Made by a program: the position numbers and the translations under genes. This document shows, piece by piece, positions 5,909 to 43,270 of a DNA stretch of 46,134 bases; positions within the stretch are counted from its first letter, which is position 1, and each line of letters opens with the position of its first letter. The DNA lies in the IMG/VR virus record IMGVR_UViG_3300032291_003206, positions 1 through 46,134 of that record, one strand, 5' to 3'. This DNA is from a virus. Below the pieces are notes generated by a model. It was not told the origin of the DNA. It did not search any database and saw only the letters and a program-made list of their open reading frames with translations.

Positions 5909-6418
5909 TTACTGATAAACATAAATTAAACAACCACCTTTAACCATATTAATTAATTTAGTATTAATATTATAAGGAGTTTCAAAACATCCTTCAGAAT
6001 ATGATGTTTTTTCTGTAATGTTAGAATGAAAAACTATTGACCTAAATTCAGCATTGTTGTTTAATATCCCATCAACACCTTTTATTTTCATAGAATATCC
6101 CCATCTACCATAATATGAATTTAAAGTAATAAAACCACCTATTGATGATTTTTTTGAACCTACTTCGTTTGAAAATTCAGTTGCATATTTTTTACCACTA
6201 TTAAATGCGTGACTTACTTTCGATTTTAAAACCATTTCCTTGTTTATCATATTATAAACATATAGTCTATCTTCCGTTATTGGTTTTGAATAATCAATCA
6301 ATACTACATAGTCTTTTTTAGGTGGATTGTATATTAATTGTACTTTTTCTGCAAAATTATATGTTGGTTCTATTTGTTGAATAATAAAAATAGATAATAT
6401 GAGTAGAATTATTTTCAT
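5909..6418 (-). CDS. L,D-transpeptidase-like (YkuD_2 type) secreted protein
   Basis: A 169-aa protein with a hydrophobic N-terminal segment (residues 2-14), likely a signal peptide or anchor. The rest matches the YkuD_2 murein L,D-transpeptidase catalytic family, common in Bacteroidota: VLIDYSKPITEDRLYVYN, then HAFNSGKKYATEFSNEVGS (70-88), a GYSMKI-GVDG segment, IVFHS with catalytic-type H131, and SEGCF with the nucleophile-type Cys144. Family members usually have SFGCPAL at this place, and here it is EGCFETP. It would act on peptidoglycan stem peptides in the periplasm, either cross-linking or cutting them. Unlike most of its neighbours it is not a replication gene. It has its own ATATTTAT element eight bases upstream and a terminator just before that. 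Candidate roles are lysis control, wall modification or superinfection exclusion. Confidence 0.8.
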   Translation of the reverse strand: MKIILLILSIFIIQQIEPTYNFAEKVQLIYNPPKKDYVVLIDYSKPITEDRLYVYNMINKEMVLKSKVSHAFNSGKKYATEFSNEVGSKKSSIGGFITLNSYYGRWGYSMKIKGVDGILNNNAEFRSIVFHSNITEKTSYSEGCFETPYNINTKLINMVKGGCLIYVYQ

Positions 6419-6444: not shown

Positions 6445-6470
6445 AAAAACCCCTCTTTTAGAGAGGGGTT
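6445..6470 (-). terminator. Intrinsic terminator after RHH-HNH cassette 1
   Basis: A 9-bp perfect stem (AACCCCTCT with AGAGGGGTT), 5-base loop, followed on the minus strand by TTTTT. It starts six bases after the HNH stop codon. Confidence 0.85.
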
Positions 6471-6475
6471 AGTTT

Positions 6476-7093
6476 TTAATTTAGTATCTTATTACTTTTT
6501 TTTAAGTTTTCCTCCGCCCATAATGGTTGGAGATTTGTGTAATGACAGAGTTTGTAAAGTTCTTCTTCTGTCTTTGCGGATGATAATGGAATAATGTGGT
6601 CAATGTGCCATTCCGTTCTGTTTTCCCAACTCATTCCTGAAACAAACTTGTTTTCCAAATGTTCCTTTAATTCTTGTGGAGAACAACCGACAATTTCAGA
6701 GGTTCTTTTTGATTTATACTTTAAATATCTATTAACAGAATGTCTCATTTTTTCAAGTAAGGCAAATAAAATATCCTCTCTTCTTCTATTTTTTAAATAT
6801 TCATTTATGTAACCCGGATTATTATCCCAAAATCTTTTTCTTGTTGCAATTACTTTATCAAAGTTCTCCACTTCCCACACTTTTCTATAGTCTTGGTAAT
6901 ATTTTTTATTCTCAGAGTTCCACTTACGGTTGTATTCTTTAATCTTTTCTTTATTCTGTGATTTATATTTTTTACTTTCTATTCTTTGGCATTCTCTACA
7001 ATAACTTCTAACCCCACATTTAACTTTAGACATTTTATTGAATTCACACAATTCTTTTTCTTCTTCACACTTACTACAAACTTTTGTTTCCAT
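6476..7093 (-). CDS. HNH endonuclease with N-terminal zinc finger (cassette 1)
   Basis: A 205-aa protein. The N-terminus carries a CxxC-type zinc finger (C6, C9, C32, C35), a long Lys/Tyr-rich helical middle follows, and the C-terminus is an HNH nuclease domain: WHIDHIIPLS with H163, D165 and H166, then NLQPLW (N187) and the final N-x(4)-K-x-N. It probably makes a specific DNA break and spreads by homing. It starts inside the end of the small RHH gene upstream (20-base overlap) and lies between uvsX and the transpeptidase gene, with its own terminator. A second HNH protein at 37891-38481 has the same cysteine spacing and the same RHH partner, so the two are paralogous cassettes. Confidence 0.9.
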   Translation of the reverse strand: METKVCSKCEEEKELCEFNKMSKVKCGVRSYCRECQRIESKKYKSQNKEKIKEYNRKWNSENKKYYQDYRKVWEVENFDKVIATRKRFWDNNPGYINEYLKNRRREDILFALLEKMRHSVNRYLKYKSKRTSEIVGCSPQELKEHLENKFVSGMSWENRTEWHIDHIIPLSSAKTEEELYKLCHYTNLQPLWAEENLKKSNKILN

Positions 7094-7235
7094 TTTTTAT
7101 ATATTCTTTCAATAGTTTATTAACTAGGGAAGAAAGATTTATTGATTTATCTTTAAAGTATTGTGGTAATTCAGGGTCAACCGAAACACCTATTTTAACT
7201 TTCTTTTCAATTTCTTTAATTTTCTTTCTTCCCAT
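7074..7235 (-). CDS. Small ribbon-helix-helix-like DNA-binding protein (cassette 1)
   Basis: A 53-aa basic protein. After a Lys-rich start (MGRKKIKEIEKK) comes a beta-strand-like KVKIGVSVD, then two helices (ELPQYFKDKS and NLSSLVNKLLKEYI). That order is typical of the ribbon-helix-helix (CopG/Arc) fold, a dimeric DNA binder often used for autoregulation. The stop codon lies 20 bases inside the following HNH gene, so the two are translationally coupled. The ATG is preceded by ATATTTAT at a 5-base gap. A protein with the same opening (MGR-K), length and neighbour occurs at 38459-38617. Likely role: repressor of its cassette, or a DNA-targeting helper of the nuclease. This is inference. Confidence 0.75.
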   Translation of the reverse strand: MGRKKIKEIEKKVKIGVSVDPELPQYFKDKSINLSSLVNKLLKEYIKNGNKSL

Positions 7236-7240
7236 ATATA

Positions 7241-7248
7241 ATAAATAT
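7241..7248 (-). promoter_or_regulatory. ATATTTAT promoter-like element, RHH-HNH cassette 1
   Basis: Exact 8-mer five bases before the RHH start codon, preceded by AG on the coding strand as in cassette 2 (GATATTTAT in both). This is the likely promoter of the cassette and a candidate operator for its RHH protein. Confidence 0.5.
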
Positions 7249-7260
7249 CTATAAATTAAT

Positions 7261-7286
7261 AAAAAGTGGAATTATTATAACTTTTT
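7261..7286 (-). terminator. Weak A+T hairpin after uvsX
   Basis: AAAAAGT and ACTTTTT form a 7-bp inverted repeat with a 12-base loop just past the uvsX stop. Almost all pairs are A-U, so the stem is weak. It is accepted only because of its position between uvsX and the next promoter-like element. Confidence 0.3.
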
Positions 7287-7287
7287 T

Positions 7288-8280
7288 TTATTCCGGCATC
7301 TCTTCTTCTCCTGTTTCTTCTAAAGTTATTTCACCATCACCACTCAATATCGCATTCCAATATTGTGAATACTCTTTTTTATATTTATCAATTTCTTCTT
7401 TTGTATCTGAAATATACCCTTGAGGTACTGCAATAATTTTACCGTCCTTCCACGCAATCCCATTAACGTGGTTTTTTAAGATAGACACTTTTGTTCTAAC
7501 CGCATAAGAAATTGTTCTCCCATTTTTTGTTGCAGTAATATGACTAACTCCGGAACTTTTTTGATTACCAAATAAGAATACCAAAGACGCCGCCAAAAAT
7601 AATGCTTGACCACCTTTAGGTTGTATCGTAGGTTGACCGAAGGGTGAGTCCGGAAGCTGAACCCAAGGTTGTACTATTACAGACATAGTATTTATATATG
7701 GGTAATCTTCTTTTTTTGATTTTGATATTCTTGAATGAAGACCTCTACCAATTTTATCCGCCAATACTCTCGCGTCGTGCATTGTGCCTCCTCCTCCATC
7801 AAAAGTTTGTTTACAAGGGATACTTCCAATTGAATCTATGAAGAACGCTAAATTGTATGGTAAATCCCCCTTCTCTTGAGCATCTAACAACTCGTTTATA
7901 TAATCCGTTAATTGTTCTATATAATCAAACGAATCATTAAATAAAAAATCCCCATCCCAAGTTCCATCTTCATTTTTTTGTGCCTGTAATCCCAACTCAA
8001 CACTATGTTCGAAACTCCACTTCTTCTCTGTAATGATGAATACGGGTAAGTGTCCTTTCTTTTGAGCATCCGCAGCAGCAAGTATTAATGCTGTTGTCTT
8101 TCCAGCGTTTGAATGTCCTAAAAGCATATTAATCCCCCCCAATACAGGACCTGGTAATCCGCAAGCATCATAAAATGCTTGTCCGCAGTTATAAAACTCG
8201 GTTTCTTTATATTTTGTTTTTGTTGAGAATTTATCCTTTATACTTGATAAGGATATTTCTTTTTTCTTAATTCCTGCCAT
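7288..8280 (-). CDS. uvsX: UvsX/RecA-like recombinase
   Basis: A 330-aa RecA-fold strand-exchange ATPase. Walker A is GHSNAGKT (55-62), preceded by GGINMLL. Walker B is LAFFIDS (144-150). A Gly-rich GGGGTMHDARVLADKIGRGL segment and a VIVQPW/PKGGQALFLAAS region correspond to the DNA-binding loops and the second subdomain of UvsX. The C-terminus is acidic (GEEEMPE), like RecA proteins. I chose the ATG at 8280 (MAGIKKK) and not the upstream in-frame start at 8364. The longer form would run 71 bases into the preceding phosphoesterase gene and add an unrelated hydrophobic stretch. It works with the gp32-like SSB in recombination-dependent replication and repair. It may be cotranscribed with the GT2/LpxH-like genes. 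Confidence 0.92.
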   Translation of the reverse strand: MAGIKKKEISLSSIKDKFSTKTKYKETEFYNCGQAFYDACGLPGPVLGGINMLLGHSNAGKTTALILAAADAQKKGHLPVFIITEKKWSFEHSVELGLQAQKNEDGTWDGDFLFNDSFDYIEQLTDYINELLDAQEKGDLPYNLAFFIDSIGSIPCKQTFDGGGGTMHDARVLADKIGRGLHSRISKSKKEDYPYINTMSVIVQPWVQLPDSPFGQPTIQPKGGQALFLAASLVFLFGNQKSSGVSHITATKNGRTISYAVRTKVSILKNHVNGIAWKDGKIIAVPQGYISDTKEEIDKYKKEYSQYWNAILSGDGEITLEETGEEEMPE

Positions 8281-10236: not shown

Positions 10237-10641
10237 TTATTTTGTTTCATCAATAAGTTTTTGCACTTTGTTCTTACATTTTTCCGATATCGGAATTGGA
10301 TTACCTTCTTCATCAATCATAACAAATCTTATATTAGTTTTTAACACAACAATTTGATTACCTGTATATACATTATGAGCCCTTGCCTCCATATATAATG
10401 TAATTGATGTTGTTCCTATAGAATTTGGGTGACCATATATTTTTAAAAGTTGCCCTTCTCGTGCAGGTTTTTCAAAATTACATTTATCAATTGAGACAGT
10501 AACCATTCTTGGCGAATCACAGAGTTGCATCGAATATCCTGCTGCCGCCGCGTCTATCCAAGCCAATAACTTTCCACCGAATAAATTTCCGTGAAAACCC
10601 AAATCTGATTTTTTTATTGGATGAGTATTTAATAATTCCAT
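10237..10641 (-). CDS. Hotdog-fold acyl-CoA thioesterase
   Basis: A 134-aa single hotdog domain of the YciA/acyl-CoA thioesterase type, which hydrolyses acyl-CoA to free fatty acid and CoA. The signature lies at the start: DLGFHGNLFGGKLLAWIDAAAAGYS, with HGN at 17-19, the GG turn and Asp30 as in the family's N-x-x-GG-x(6)-D pattern. TVSIDKCNFEKPAREGQLL and the SITLYMEARA strand follow, completing the five-stranded sheet. Length is normal for the family. It lies between the SSB and an acidic protein, with a terminator hairpin ending ten bases before the ATG. A metabolic enzyme in a replication block is unusual and could serve membrane or fatty-acid remodelling. The substrate cannot be read from sequence. 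Confidence 0.85.
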   Translation of the reverse strand: MELLNTHPIKKSDLGFHGNLFGGKLLAWIDAAAAGYSMQLCDSPRMVTVSIDKCNFEKPAREGQLLKIYGHPNSIGTTSITLYMEARAHNVYTGNQIVVLKTNIRFVMIDEEGNPIPISEKCKNKVQKLIDETK

Positions 10642-10650
10642 TTTTAGTTA

Positions 10651-37584: not shown

Positions 37585-37920
37585 ATGTCGATTATAAAAT
37601 CATTTCCTACCCAAAAATGGGTTAATAATATTTGGGTTGTAACTTCCGAAACCTCAATCGTATCTGAAAATGAGTACTCAACAGATGGAGAGTCTTGTAT
37701 CGTAGTTAAAGGAGTGTCTAGTTGTAACATAACATTAAATCACGAAACAACAGAACACGTAGTTATTAAATGTCTCACTAAGACCATCATTAAACCAAGT
37801 ATTGGTAAAATTGATGAGGAGTATGATGAAATCGAATCCGATAAAGGTGCTTGTATTGAATTCAGATGTATTGAAAAAAATTGGTATGTTTTAAGTTCGG
37901 ACGGTTTGAAATTCTCCTAA
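37585..37920 (+). CDS. Hypothetical small beta-rich structural-type protein
   Basis: A 111-aa protein I do not recognise. It is beta-rich with four cysteines (SCIVVKGVSSCNITL, VIKCLTK, ACIEFRCIEKNWYVLSSDG) and an acidic loop (KIDEEYDEIESDKG). The ending NWYVLSSDGLKF is seen in small phage decoration- or fibre-type proteins, which suggests a virion role. It follows the gp13-like gene by 34 bases on the plus strand. Its last 30 bases overlap, tail to tail, the end of the HNH gene of cassette 2, so that cassette may have landed right at its 3' end. Confidence 0.65.
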   Translation: MSIIKSFPTQKWVNNIWVVTSETSIVSENEYSTDGESCIVVKGVSSCNITLNHETTEHVVIKCLTKTIIKPSIGKIDEEYDEIESDKGACIEFRCIEKNWYVLSSDGLKFS

Positions 37921-38481
37921 CTTATTTCTTTTAGAAGAATTTTCAAAACCCCATAGCGGTTGTAAATTTGTGTAATAACAAAGTTTATTTAAATCTTCAG
38001 TAGTTTTGGCGTAGTATAAAGGTATGATATGGTCTATATGCCATTCACCATAATTTTCCCAACACATTCCCGGTTTAAATTGTTGTTTAAGATATTTTTT
38101 AAAATTAGGTAAATCAATACCTAACATAACTAAAGTTTTATTGTCTTTGTGAAGTTTATTTGATTTAACAAATTGTGATATCCTACTACGTAAATTAGAA
38201 GAAACTCTTAACATTTCATCAACCCTCTTTTTATTTTTTAAATTTTCAATTATTTGAGGTTTTTTATGTTCATAATATTTTTTATTACGAATCAACTCTT
38301 TTTTTGGATTTTCGGAATATCTTTTTTTTCTTTTTTCTTTGTAATACTCCGAATTATTCAAATAGGTTAATTTTTGGCAATCTCTACACTCTCCCCTCAA
38401 TCCAGATTTATTTCTTTTTGAAATATTAAAGTCTGAATATTTTTTTTCTACGTTACACCTACAACAAATTTTTGATTCCAT
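37891..38481 (-). CDS. HNH endonuclease with N-terminal zinc finger (cassette 2)
   Basis: A 196-aa paralogue of the HNH protein at 6476-7093. The zinc-finger cysteines are at the same positions (C6, C9, C32, C35), a Lys/Tyr-rich helical middle follows, and the nuclease end reads WHIDHIIPLYYAKT (H148, D150, H151) and NLQPLW. It starts 23 bases inside the RHH gene upstream and lies just downstream of the DNA polymerase gene, a classic homing location. The C-terminal tail overlaps the 3' end of the plus-strand gene before it. It likely nicks or cuts a conserved phage target and copies itself into relatives that lack it. The paralogues differ mainly in the helical middle, which may set target choice. 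Confidence 0.9.
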   Translation of the reverse strand: MESKICCRCNVEKKYSDFNISKRNKSGLRGECRDCQKLTYLNNSEYYKEKRKKRYSENPKKELIRNKKYYEHKKPQIIENLKNKKRVDEMLRVSSNLRSRISQFVKSNKLHKDNKTLVMLGIDLPNFKKYLKQQFKPGMCWENYGEWHIDHIIPLYYAKTTEDLNKLCYYTNLQPLWGFENSSKRNKLGEFQTVRT

Positions 38482-38617
38482 AATATTCTCTAACTAATTT
38501 TTCTATTATACGGGAAGGCATTATTTTTTCTTCTTTTATTTTATTGTATAAAACTCTATCAAGACTAATACTAACCTTAATTTTTTTTTCTTCTTTGTTT
38601 TTTTTAGGTCTCCCCAT
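38459..38617 (-). CDS. Small ribbon-helix-helix-like DNA-binding protein (cassette 2)
   Basis: A 52-aa basic protein beginning MGRPKKNKEEKK, then KIKVSISLD (strand), two helices (RVLYNKIKEEKI and SRIIEKLVREYYGI). It is of RHH type and matches the cassette 1 protein in opening, length and layout. I chose the ATG at 38617 and not the longer in-frame start at 38692. The longer form would run through the ATATTTAT element and the end of the polymerase gene and add residues with no family fit. It overlaps the HNH gene by 23 bases, so they are coupled. Likely a repressor or helper of its nuclease. Confidence 0.75.
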   Translation of the reverse strand: MGRPKKNKEEKKIKVSISLDRVLYNKIKEEKIMPSRIIEKLVREYYGIKNLL

Positions 38618-38621
38618 AATG

Positions 38622-38629
38622 ATAAATAT
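38622..38629 (-). promoter_or_regulatory. ATATTTAT promoter-like element, RHH-HNH cassette 2
   Basis: Exact 8-mer (GATATTTATC) four bases before the RHH ATG, matching the signal of cassette 1 including the leading G. Confidence 0.5.
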
Positions 38630-38654
38630 CTTAATTTTATTAAAAGTAGTATTT

Positions 38655-41417
38655 TTACATAAATTTTTCCCACCCTGGCTCCGCCAAATCATAAATGTAG
38701 TTTGGGCTTAACCCAACTCTATCCCAAAACAATATCTCTGAATCTGTTATTGTTAATAAATCTTCAACATTATCTTGGTCTTCAGGTTCAAACGGGACAC
38801 CATTTATGAGTTCACATTGCTGAGTTGTAAATATTCCTCTGTCTTTTGGTTCATCAACAAGTAACCCATCTCTAACTTCTTGTCCAAAACAAATAAGGAG
38901 AGGTTCAATTCTTTTATTGAATGTTGTTATCGCTCTTGGTACATTATACTCACCAGTCATATTTGGATTCGATTCAATCTTACTTTGTTCCAACATATAA
39001 CAATTGATTTGAACATATCCTTCGGGAATTGGTTTTCCGTGAGCCAACATATACTCTTCTTGTAATTTTTTTGTTGGTTTGGTTATTTTTTGAACATCTC
39101 CATTTGATGCCTTTGTTCCATTATTAACATAATATATAACATCTCCAAGATTAACATTTAATTTGTTTTGGAAGGCGAGTTCCATATGCGCCATCATAGA
39201 CATTGCACCGCCAGACTTTGTTTTCTGTGTTGACCTTTTCTTGTAATCCTCCATAGTAAGTTTAACTTTTGCTCTCTGTGCAATTTTCATAAGGGGGATT
39301 TGTTTATCATAAATCTTTTGCAAGTATTCATAATAATATTCAACAAACTCTTTTCCCTTACCTTCAAGAAGAAGTTTCACCGCAACATCCAAAAAGTCCT
39401 CAATATAAAGTGGTAGTTTTTTAGATTTAATTGAATTACCTGTAAGTTTAATTTTACCATTAGATTCCATAACTGCATAATTCTTTCTTGCAAGATTAAT
39501 ACAACTATCCCAAGTCCCATCACAATCTAACGCCATTTCCCCTCTTTGAAATAAATCATTAAATTCTGCTACATCGGCGTAATATCCTCTATATTCTTTA
39601 CCTTCTTTAACTTTCCAATTAAGTCCTTTACCAATATACACTCTTTTTTCAACACCTTCAGGTATTGAGAAGTTCATACCGTCTGTATCACAAACAAGGG
39701 CAGTATATCCTTTTTTTGAAAAAAACTTCAACATCTGACGTAGATATTGCCTACCGGTACAGGTAATTTGTTCCCCACAATTCATATCCCCCCACGCATA
39801 TACTTGTGGGGCAGATAACGCACCAAATTTTGAATTGATGAAAATTTTAATTGGAAGTTGTTTATTACCGTATGATTCCGACTTTTTTTTATCTGTTTCA
39901 TAATACTGTTCCGCAAGTTGTTTGTATTTTATACGGGTATCACGGAAATATTTTAACATTCCTTTCATTGCACCTGTTATGTCACAGTCTGGGAATACAT
40001 CGTGAACAAGTTGAATTGAAGGATAAAGAGAACTGAAGTCAAGTTTTAAAACATTCTTTGAATACCCCACTTTTAACAATCTCGAAAGTCCTCCCACAAA
40101 ATCTGTTTTCTTTTGTTTTTCAGGTATTGCAAGTCCATTCTTATAACTCCACGCCAACATCAACATCTTCCAAAGAGTTGCAGTTCCCATAGTTGAAACC
40201 CTCTCATAAGTGGTAGGAATCATAGATGCAAGAAGGAAAGATGCTTGGTTAAATTCTTGGTCAACTTTTAAGGTTTCGTCCAAGTCATCATCAAGATACA
40301 TCTCAACAAGTTTATCACCTGTCATTTTTTTATATACATCAGGAAACTTGATATCGAGGTCAGCATATTCACTCGCCTTTTTGTAATTACCGTTTTGAAC
40401 ATTTAACCAATACTCTTCTTTTTCAGTGTACATCTTTCCAATATCAGTGTGTTCAATATAAACCCTATCATTTGCTTCCGCATTGATATATTTGGTGATG
40501 TATTTAAGTCCTGCGGATTTGATACTTGAATTAATGGCCTGTGCTCTACGAACGGCGTGAATAATGTCAATTACATTATACCCCCAAATTGACGTTTGAA
40601 GATAATCTTCAACTTCATTTGCAAGTTTCAAAATAGTTTCTCTTCTTGTATATGAGTGTTCGGGATGAAGTGATTTACAGACGTGTTTAGCATTAATACC
40701 AAGGATTCTACATCTTTCAAATATCCAATGCCAATCGAAGTTTGCAGAATTATAACCGCCAATTATACTTGGTTTGATTTGGTTAATAACATTAAAAAAT
40801 TCAATTATCCCTTCCTTTTCCTTACTTTCATCAATACATTCAATAACCCTATGATAACCTTTGTTGGTTTTAATTCCAATCATAAAGATTCTACCATCTT
40901 TTGGTTCAAGGGAAGTAGTTTCCAAGTCAAATACAAGTCGGGTAACATCATCATAGTCTTCGAAACCCTTGAATAATCTTTTTTCTTTTTGAATAAGATA
41001 TTGCTCCACGGGAGGTAGTATAAGAATCTTTTCTTTTCCTTTTTCTCCATATGGGTCAATCCCACCATCACGAAAGAATTGAATAAGAGAACGATATCCC
41101 TTTAGTGATTTAACAAGAAATGTTAAACCATTTTTCATTCTTTCGTTATCACCCGATTCAAGTTTGTCAATAACAATTCCAAACTTGGACATCGCTTCTT
41201 TTTGTAATCCTTTAGAATCTTGATAGAAGTTTAACCCACGTAAGTCTCCCACCCACGCGAAGGGTATAAATGTATCTTTTCTAATTTCTTTTCCTTTACC
41301 GGGGATTTCTTTAATCTTGAAAATTGATTCTGATGCGTAGTCGTATTCAATTGCCACTATAAATTCTTCGGGGTCATTTCCGTGTAGAAATGATTCAATC
41401 ACTTGAGGTTCAATCAT
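38655..41417 (-). CDS. Family B DNA polymerase (gp43-like)
   Basis: A 920-aa replicative polymerase with proofreading exonuclease. Exo I is VFDLETTSLEP (D164, E166), Exo II GYNSANFDW (221-229), and Exo III is near EYADLDIKF. The polymerase motifs are KLDFSSLYPS (D460), the KLPIKIFINSKFGALSAPQVYAWGD helix and CDTDG (D577, D579). T4 gp43 is 898 aa. The order and spacing are complete, so it should be active. Its ATG is 60 bases from an ATATTTAT element. It is on the same strand as most replication genes but 30 kb away from the helicase block. It is followed by the RHH-HNH cassette 38 bases beyond its stop. Confidence 0.96.
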   Translation of the reverse strand: MIEPQVIESFLHGNDPEEFIVAIEYDYASESIFKIKEIPGKGKEIRKDTFIPFAWVGDLRGLNFYQDSKGLQKEAMSKFGIVIDKLESGDNERMKNGLTFLVKSLKGYRSLIQFFRDGGIDPYGEKGKEKILILPPVEQYLIQKEKRLFKGFEDYDDVTRLVFDLETTSLEPKDGRIFMIGIKTNKGYHRVIECIDESKEKEGIIEFFNVINQIKPSIIGGYNSANFDWHWIFERCRILGINAKHVCKSLHPEHSYTRRETILKLANEVEDYLQTSIWGYNVIDIIHAVRRAQAINSSIKSAGLKYITKYINAEANDRVYIEHTDIGKMYTEKEEYWLNVQNGNYKKASEYADLDIKFPDVYKKMTGDKLVEMYLDDDLDETLKVDQEFNQASFLLASMIPTTYERVSTMGTATLWKMLMLAWSYKNGLAIPEKQKKTDFVGGLSRLLKVGYSKNVLKLDFSSLYPSIQLVHDVFPDCDITGAMKGMLKYFRDTRIKYKQLAEQYYETDKKKSESYGNKQLPIKIFINSKFGALSAPQVYAWGDMNCGEQITCTGRQYLRQMLKFFSKKGYTALVCDTDGMNFSIPEGVEKRVYIGKGLNWKVKEGKEYRGYYADVAEFNDLFQRGEMALDCDGTWDSCINLARKNYAVMESNGKIKLTGNSIKSKKLPLYIEDFLDVAVKLLLEGKGKEFVEYYYEYLQKIYDKQIPLMKIAQRAKVKLTMEDYKKRSTQKTKSGGAMSMMAHMELAFQNKLNVNLGDVIYYVNNGTKASNGDVQKITKPTKKLQEEYMLAHGKPIPEGYVQINCYMLEQSKIESNPNMTGEYNVPRAITTFNKRIEPLLICFGQEVRDGLLVDEPKDRGIFTTQQCELINGVPFEPEDQDNVEDLLTITDSEILFWDRVGLSPNYIYDLAEPGWEKFM

Positions 41418-41515: not shown

Positions 41516-43270
41516 TTATGCCTTTCCTCCGTCATTTATGGTCCAATTGTAAGTATCTATTATATATTGTCTTGCAGCTTCTCCATCACCCGTATACTGT
41601 ATACCTCCAAAATCTGCAATAACGTTTGATTGTAATGGTATTCCGGCCCAATAATTTAATATATTATCATATTGGGCAGATGGATAAGTTTTATCATTCA
41701 TAAATTCTTGTAAACTCCCAACATTATATATATTCCATCCATCAAATTTAGAGTCAAATGCAGTCGCACCACTAAACATTGCTCTCATACTTGTTACCGC
41801 AGATAGTGAAGAATCCTCCCTCTCCCAATTCTCTAAATTAAAATTAAATGTTCTTGCACCACTAAACATTTCATCCATATTTGTAACACTTGAAACATTC
41901 CAAGAAGATATGTTTTGATTAAATCCGTCACAGTTTTTAAACATTGAGTTCATACTTGTAACTCCGCTTGTATTCCAAGAACTAATATCTCCGTTAAATA
42001 CGGTACAACCTTCAAAAGTACTGGACATATCAGTAATATTTGAAGTGTCCCAATCAATAGTTCCATCCGCAGTAGTACAACCATTAAATAGGTCTTGTAA
42101 TGTATCAATATTGGTGTATATATTATTTATATCCCAATCACTAATTGGGGATAAATTGGTTAATGAACTACACCCTTGGAAGAATCCTGTTAAAGAATTA
42201 CTTGTTACTAATATAGGCCCTCCATTCGCAAAACTTGTTAAATTAACACAACCACTTAAAACTGAAGTATTACCTGAAATTACTATGTCACCCCACTCGG
42301 TTATAGTTCTTAAATTTGCCCTATTTTCAGAACTAACACCAGCATTACCATAACTGAATCCTTTTATACTTCCAACAACAATTGTAACTTCATATAATGA
42401 ATTATTACCATAAGTGTGTACTTTAGCACCATCGTTCCAATCAGTAATTGTATCACTTGTACTATCACCCCAGTTTACAGTGAAACTATAATCACCTGTC
42501 GAAACCAAAGGTAACTCAGCAACTGTTGGGTCACCATTAGGTGATTGGAATGTCATTCTTAATATTGGTAGTGGTGTTAGACTTGGTGTTGGGGTTGGTG
42601 TGGATGTTCTTGTTGGTGTTATGGTTACTGTTGGTGTATTTGTTCTAGTTACTGTAGGAGTTATTGTTTGAGTAGGAGTGTTAGACGGTGTTTGAGTATT
42701 AGTTGGTGTTATGGTTACTGTTGGTGTATTTGTTCTAGTTACTGTAGGAGTTATTGTTTGAGTAGGAGTGTTAGACGGTGTTTGAGTATTAGTTGGAGTT
42801 TGCGATGTCGTGTTTGTTGGTGTTTGGGTTGGAGTTTGGGTTGGAGTTGGTGTGGTTGTTCGTGTTGGTGTTTGTGATGGGGTCGGAGTAATTATTACAG
42901 GGCAACATTGCTCAACACTACTTATCGAATCTAAAACAAAAATATTCAAATCTTCCATAATTGGTAAGATTTCAACCCCGTTTGTCTTGATTGTAAATTC
43001 ACCTCTATATTTACCACTTTTGTTGGTGTCTTTTGTTCTAAATTGATATTGAATATAATACTCAGTATTTCCATTAGTATCCGTAAATTCAACTAACTGA
43101 GCAGGAGAGTTTTGTATTTTAGTAACTCCTGATTTCAAATCATACATTGAAAAAAAAACACCGTGAATCGAAAGTTTCGATATAATTGATTGAAAATCAG
43201 GTCTTCCATCATTGATGAATAAAACCTTCAATAACGGTAAATTCGCACCATTTTTAATGTAAAAATCCAT
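41516..43270 (-). CDS. Tail-fibre-like adhesin: Thr-Pro stalk and BspA-like (DUF285) repeats
   Basis: A 584-aa modular protein. Residues 1-115 form a beta domain ([32 protein letters not shown]) like the attachment domain of phage baseplate or fibre proteins. Residues about 127-234 are almost pure Thr/Pro with Gln, Asn and Ser. Residues 235-290 have a PKD-like strand set ([18 protein letters not shown]). From about 320 to 545 are repeated units of the BspA/DUF285 surface-protein type ([30 protein letters not shown] and similar). No signal peptide is present, as expected for a virion part. It probably binds a host surface molecule. The stalk is a natural O-glycosylation target, and the two genes upstream look like glycosyltransferases. 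It starts four bases after an ATATTTAT element. Confidence 0.82.
42612..42791. repeat. Two perfect 90-bp tandem copies in the fibre stalk
   Basis: Bases 42612-42701 and 42702-42791 are identical over 90 bases, encoding two 30-residue Thr/Pro/Gln units. Lower-grade repeats flank them. DNA-level identity implies a recent duplication and likely stalk-length variation. Confidence 0.95.

Follow-up and report, generated by a model that had tools for sequence, protein, structure and literature searches.

The window, by which we mean the whole 46,134-nucleotide stretch of viral DNA analysed here, carries a pair of minus-strand genes that we call unit 1. The leading gene (7074-7235) encodes a 53-residue CcdA/Arc-like protein of ribbon-helix-helix (RHH) type, MGRKKIKEIEKKVKIGVSVDPELPQYFKDKSINLSSLVNKLLKEYIKNGNKSL, which we propose to be an autoregulator. 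Its 3' end shares 20 nucleotides (7074-7093, minus strand) with the 5' start of the following gene (6476-7093), which encodes an HNH nuclease of 205 residues. On the same strand lie a uvsX-like gene upstream (7288-8280; PHROG 2.6e-11) and, next downstream, a gene with a YkuD_2 L,D-transpeptidase domain (5909-6418; 1.9e-37). The initial annotation had already described a 53-residue frame ending 20 nucleotides within the HNH gene, in a unit placed between uvsX and an unrelated enzyme, and both statements are confirmed. The YkuD_2 gene separates unit 1 from an exonuclease gene, a position that YkuD_2 does not occupy in most relatives.

The short RHH frame is kept in more than 100 loci, and its codons 1-46, which lie ahead of the overlap, have a median dN/dS of 0.14; for these reasons we take it to be a genuine gene. 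Its proposed strand-helix-helix layout is upheld by family-level profiles, on which our assignment of the fold rests: the protein exceeds the gathering score of Pfam CcdA, an RHH antitoxin family (23.1 versus 22.4 bits), and matches a PHROG of Arc-like repressors (8e-4), while 12 of 13 RHH members have CcdA matches with E values of 0.1 or lower. The AlphaFold monomer is of middling confidence (pLDDT 74; helices 22-29 and 34-47) and its top Foldseek match, the RHH protein CdbA, falls below significance (E 3.6). The NCBIfam CcdA profile aligns residues 12-43 with CcdA 2-33, so that residues 14, 16 and 18 correspond to CcdA 4, 6 and 8. The Pfam alignment spans CcdA positions 1-37 of 71, plus 5 residues. 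The part of CcdA that binds CcdB comprises residues 37-72 (table in PMC4803016), and this toxin-neutralising region is missing from the RHH protein, which at 53 residues is minimal, as in Arc.

The nuclease has an N-terminal CxxC..CxxC finger, a series of 15-residue helical repeats and a C-terminal WHIDHIIPL..TNLQPLW..N..K motif, and matches PHROG 1035, labelled endonuclease VII (3e-22); PADLOC and NCBIfam runs on it returned nothing informative. The nuclease motif is intact, with D165, H166, N187, N196 and the four cysteines invariant. The repeats between finger and HNH domain vary in number, giving protein lengths of 173-261 residues, and might measure the distance to the target, like a ruler.

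Behind the HNH gene lies a terminator hairpin (6448-6470) that fits both strands. The unit had been credited with a terminator of its own: the terminator consensus is real (4 sites observed versus 0.3 expected in the region), but its fit is bidirectional, and in most relatives the nuclease gene leads directly into the exonuclease gene.

The window's own record holds only one further copy of the HNH nuclease, in unit 2, behind the DNA polymerase gene. There a minus-strand RHH gene (38459-38617; 52 residues, beginning MGRPKKNKEEKKIKVSISLD; HMM E 2e-23) shares 23 nucleotides with the gene for a nuclease of 196 residues (37891-38481, minus strand). Another putative nuclease, of a different family (PHROG 3322), is encoded at 167-748 on the minus strand; it has ATATTTAT 5 nucleotides ahead of its start and is preceded by no RHH gene.

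The putative operator box and the start element

Two elements stand ahead of each RHH gene, all on the minus strand. In unit 1 the putative operator, AATAATTCCACTTTT, occupies 7262-7276, within a longer conserved box, GTTATAATAATTCCACTTTT (7262-7281), and is followed by the start or promoter element ATATTTAT at 7241-7248. In unit 2 the putative operator is AAAAATACTACTTTT (38642-38656), with ATATTTAT at 38622-38629. The unit 1 operator has no other exact copy in the window and the unit 2 operator is likewise the sole copy, so each RHH protein looks dedicated to its own unit. A one-mismatch copy of the unit 1 operator at 10631-10645 on the plus strand, over the start of the gene at 10237-10641, is probably due to chance. 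The span earlier named for a gel shift, 7236-7260, excludes the likely operator.

The ATATTTAT element is indeed present where the initial annotation placed it. It is not private to the unit, however, and we rejected that reading: it occurs on the coding strand within 70 nucleotides upstream of 11 of the 31 genes of the window (at positions such as 753, 4200, 6427, 7241, 12523, 28172, 36398, 38622 and 43275) and appears general to this phage. It may serve this T4-like phage as a promoter element with short leaders, comparable to the T4 late TATAAATA.

What kind of element is the box? A half-site ACTTTT (or ATTTTT, GCTTTT) precedes an ATATTTA-like element in all 222 leader instances, a set that includes many loci fetched twice, at a distance of 18-20 nucleotides, or 10 in one clade (18-19 in 204 of 222); the sequence to the left of the half-site differs between classes. 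At sites other than uvsX the box generally takes the form of an inverted repeat, AAAAGT-N3-ACTTTT (4.81 of 6 pairs versus 2.32 when shuffled), and locus L399 carries the exact reverse complement of the unit 2 operator with the same strand class. A protein-binding site would be expected to show such a dyad and such an inversion; a core promoter hexamer would not. The L198-type clade at uvsX has lost 9 nucleotides between box and ATATTTA, and the box is therefore not simply a -35 element. A palindrome shared by the uvsX boxes of all classes is not supported; these boxes show weak dyad symmetry only (3.4 of 6 pairs), and the dyad is clear only at the other sites.

Occupied and empty sites among relatives

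The close relatives are metagenomic contigs from IMG/VR, of which we scanned 80 loci from uvsX and 80 from the polymerase end. At the uvsX/exonuclease junction, RHH is present in 21 of the 80 loci and 59 have neither RHH nor HNH; none of the 80 has an HNH gene lacking the upstream RHH frame. Many of the unit-free loci pass from uvsX to the 5'-3' exonuclease gene within 3-40 nucleotides, and in others methyltransferases or other genes follow uvsX. Exceptions at the uvsX site are a contig end (L151), a nuclease broken by a stop (L112) and an RHH gene followed by an intein-bearing C5 methyltransferase (L158). The polB end has both genes in 6 of 80 loci and neither in 74. Further units sit at the 3' end of a helicase gene, in the vicinity of homologues of the window gene at 41516-43270, and elsewhere; contigs of 309-318 kb have three to five units apiece.

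A fixed site that is occupied in some relatives and empty in others is the pattern of free-standing homing endonucleases. Judged from these contigs, the RHH and nuclease genes are a mobile unit, gained and lost jointly at the uvsX and polB sites. The earlier idea of a self-contained two-gene homing unit is borne out to this extent, both genes being missing in most relatives, and homing itself is its presumed activity. A search of phage genomes for small RHH genes upstream of HNH genes, suggested along with that idea, finds such pairs recurring across IMG/VR relatives at several sites. The distribution has bounds: the RHH protein has no match at E 0.1 among INPHARED annotated phages, where HNH relatives are all below 60% identity and the four regions inspected are without this RHH. 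It is also missing beside most of the distant phage HNH relatives and beside all 52 HNH relatives found in cellular genomes.

The uvsX-exonuclease junction is a hotspot in its own right: Dam-like and Dcm-like methyltransferases and other genes (MGKIIRLTE...) occupy it in L084, L088, L095, L117, L130 and L158, mostly in phages without the unit. In L158, L213 and L214 a nuclease-free RHH gene at uvsX is followed by a C5 methyltransferase gene split by an intein with LAGLIDADG motifs, and L213 retains a METK remnant of the lost nuclease. In L412, L413, L325 and L326 a truncated HNH frame of 53 or 43 residues stands behind an intact RHH gene, the nuclease decaying before the controller. Locus L424 has an orphan RHH gene of KVSVALD class with a matching operator and a 4-nucleotide overlap with an apparently resident gene beside a primase-like gene; this is perhaps a domesticated controller. 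Small RHH-like frames outside the profile also lie directly ahead of HNH nucleases, at 814-969 of L461 (the 642-kb phage LR756502) and before position 3005 of L063; RHH-nuclease pairing may have more than one origin.

Nuclease exchange and co-variation with the box

The gene behind the RHH leader varies. In the same redundant set of leaders it encodes an HNH nuclease in 202 of 222 instances, a NUMOD3/PD-(D/E)XK-like nuclease in 13 and neither in 7; the PD-(D/E)XK assignment relies on a TnsA-like Pfam match of 26.3 bits, against a cut-off of 26.5, and on a motif judged by eye. In three large genomes RHH overlaps a LAGLIDADG nuclease. Nucleases of PD-(D/E)XK-like type also occur without RHH at the same uvsX site (L258-L260), and in L195 the one behind RHH begins METNNCTKCEE, resembling the HNH start, as though the leader had been grafted onto it. 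Among the HNH units themselves, RHH and HNH distances hardly correlate (0.12, uvsX set), RHH is the better conserved (mean distance 0.21 versus 0.44), and 119 pairs of units have RHH proteins at least 95% identical yet HNH proteins at most 60% identical. The putative RHH controller is thus exchangeable, found ahead of no fewer than three unrelated nuclease folds.

Overlaps range from 8 to 53 nucleotides and keep the same relative frame (2 modulo 3) in 215 of 215 HNH and PD cases. We considered a frameshift fusion of RHH and HNH and rejected it. Despite the constant frame, no plausible slippery site was seen by eye in the overlap, which makes an overlap for coupled translation the simpler reading.

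Does the box follow the RHH protein or the nuclease? In the uvsX set, distances correlate at 0.69 between RHH and box, as against 0.05 (not significant) between HNH and box and -0.04 for HNH and box given RHH. When synonymous distance (dS), the spacer and the remaining residues of the protein are controlled for, the box retains a partial correlation of 0.45 (p 5e-4) with residues 14, 16 and 18, compared with 0.09 for the core residues 13, 15, 17 and 19, 0.08 for helix A and 0.01 for helix B. The spacer, lying between box and gene and hence more tightly linked, tracks the strand less (0.20). Units at different genome sites that share a residue triplet tend to have similar operators (0.742 versus 0.685, permutation p 0.008), also with uvsX excluded (0.870 versus 0.699, p 2e-4). 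These distance tests are of Mantel type with phylogeny unmodelled, and their p-values are optimistic because the sequences are related and leaders move as blocks. The KVSVAL class illustrates the trend, with AATATTCACACTTTT or near variants at uvsX, polB, helicase and two further sites. For the triplet KGS, however, the box at uvsX differs from the boxes elsewhere, and residues beyond 14, 16 and 18 must therefore matter. These three residues are predicted to face the DNA, and their co-variation with the box is a statistical one.

The initial annotation had suggested that the RHH partner limits nuclease production or helps choose the target. The former suggestion gains support in silico, since the box co-varies with the predicted DNA-facing residues of RHH and not with the nuclease. 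The latter is not supported: RHH does not track the nuclease, three nuclease folds share this kind of RHH, and the leader with its box is present in 0 of the 59 uvsX loci without a unit.

A putative controller and its known counterparts

Because of the coupling between box and RHH, the exchange of partners and the patchiness of the unit, we consider it likely that RHH is a dedicated autoregulator of a homing nuclease, most probably a repressor, and not a target selector or a typical antitoxin. The two genes would be transcribed together as a mobile unit that has a switch of its own, with a leader that runs from the operator to the ATATTTAT start element and then to RHH, whose end overlaps the nuclease start. 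RHH dimers would contact the operator with residues 14, 16 and 18 of the beta strand, most likely shutting off the promoter next to it; once accumulated, the protein would hold transcription of both genes low, so that the nuclease would be made only in a short or weak burst, for example on entry of the unit into a new genome. Translation of the overlapping genes is probably coupled. The nuclease alone would choose and cut the target, the unit then inserting alongside, and the RHH controller would serve as a replaceable head for nucleases of different fold. What the sequences show is the unit, its patchy presence, the co-variation of box and RHH and the exchange of nucleases; DNA binding by RHH, repression in preference to activation, the timing, the translational coupling and homing activity are what we infer.

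Could the pair instead work like a type II toxin-antitoxin system, RHH inactivating the nuclease by binding it, as CcdA does CcdB, for protection or addiction? The order of genes, antitoxin then toxin with an overlap, the Pfam CcdA match above threshold and the discussion of CcdA-like/nuclease pairs of moraphages in such terms would all suit this. We nevertheless think it improbable: the match is confined to CcdA 1-37 plus 5 residues, leaving out the CcdB-binding part (37-72), and the partner specificity of an antitoxin is contradicted by the RHH-HNH correlation of 0.12, by the three unrelated folds and by the 119 pairs combining near-identical RHH with divergent HNH. Moreover, each partner occurs alone, the PD-(D/E)XK-like nucleases at the same site in L258-L260 and the RHH genes in L158, L213 and L424. 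It is very unlikely that RHH is a specificity subunit that leads the nuclease to the target or keeps it from cutting the donor's own site. The genes are adjacent and co-occur almost obligately at uvsX and polB, and the box sits at the insertion junction, but its absence from all 59 unit-free uvsX loci means that it cannot mark recipients; one operator class serves units at five genome sites, RHH does not follow the nuclease, and the 52 cellular HNH relatives and most distant phage relatives do without RHH. Least probable is that RHH is a resident phage gene behind uvsX after which nucleases merely insert. Its better conservation than HNH and the nuclease-free loci (L158, L213, L214, L424) could be read so, except that RHH is missing at 59 of 80 uvsX and 74 of 80 polB loci, that RHH-nuclease pairs recur at polB, helicase, the 41516 gene and other sites, and that several nuclease-poor loci look secondarily reduced (the METK remnant in L213, the truncated HNH in L412 and L325).

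An autoregulator need not repress, and RHH bound to the box might activate or time the unit. The box lies upstream of ATATTTA at an activator-like distance (18-19 nucleotides, or 10), and co-variation is neutral on the sign of regulation. We hold activation to be unlikely, given that operon-first RHH proteins with a box at their own promoter mostly autorepress (CcdA, ParD, RelB, Arc) and that the nearest precedent is the autorepression of I-TevI, I-TevII and I-TevIII at phage promoters. More speculatively, and with low probability in our view, the RHH leader may work as an 'immunity head' that selfish nuclease units carry with them. The RHH of a resident unit would then repress units newly arriving in a co-infected cell if they belong to its own operator class, and not others, and competition between units would drive co-varying RHH/operator classes, like the immunity groups of temperate phages. 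Sharing of a residue class showed no clear difference within genomes (5 of 40 pairs) and between them (79 of 507 pairs at RHH identity below 70%), so there is no clear avoidance within genomes, which counts against a simple form of this idea.

The autoregulator that we favour bears on the question of how a selfish nuclease avoids harming its carrier phage; a 2010 review of T4 counted transcriptional and translational control of homing nucleases among largely unknown areas. If the reading is right, the carrier would be spared by a repressor that is distinct from the nuclease and can be exchanged, its readable code lying in three strand residues and an operator of 15 bp. This suggests that such control can be built in modules, whatever the fold of the nuclease. 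The many natural RHH/operator variants would also offer sets of small repressor/operator pairs.

How do these units compare with known systems? With CcdA, Arc and other RHH autorepressors they share the RHH profile, the operon-first position and a box at the unit's own promoter, the 53-residue length included, but the toxin-binding tail is absent and the gene that follows encodes a homing-type nuclease whose fold varies. Free-standing phage homing endonucleases (seg, mob and others near essential genes) are described as single genes (PMC10448857). Like them, our nuclease genes lie between essential replication genes, here uvsX, polB and helicase, and are patchily present; unlike our units, they are described as promoterless or as using middle or late promoters, with no dedicated regulator gene (PMC10448857). 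In T4, the expression of I-TevI, I-TevII and I-TevIII is limited by operator binding over their own phage promoter (PMC2988022), a restraint on a homing nuclease like the one proposed here. There, however, the nuclease is itself the repressor, is intron-encoded and has an operator resembling the homing site (PMC2988022), whereas the units described here have a separate putative RHH regulator and an operator that is missing at the empty site. In contrast to an I-TevI-type autorepressor, the box correlates with RHH and not with HNH, and the leader is missing at unit-free loci.

The closest parallel is a single paragraph of November 2025 on moraphages, which reports pairs of a CcdA/HicB-like antitoxin and a PacI-like putative homing endonuclease and offers regulation as one suggestion (PMC12619734); our search for RHH, CcdA, CopG or Arc proteins with homing nucleases in the literature found nothing else comparable. 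These pairs likewise join a CcdA-like small protein to a nuclease in large Bacteroidota phages, with several copies per genome (PMC12619734), and the PacI of the comparison is an HNH-type enzyme. They are probably units of the same kind, although that report contains no operator, empty sites, nuclease exchange or discrimination between regulation and benefit (PMC12619734). The pairing was thus mentioned in passing in 2025 (PMC12619734), and what appears to be new is the putative operator, the exchange of one nuclease for another and the evidence for mobility.
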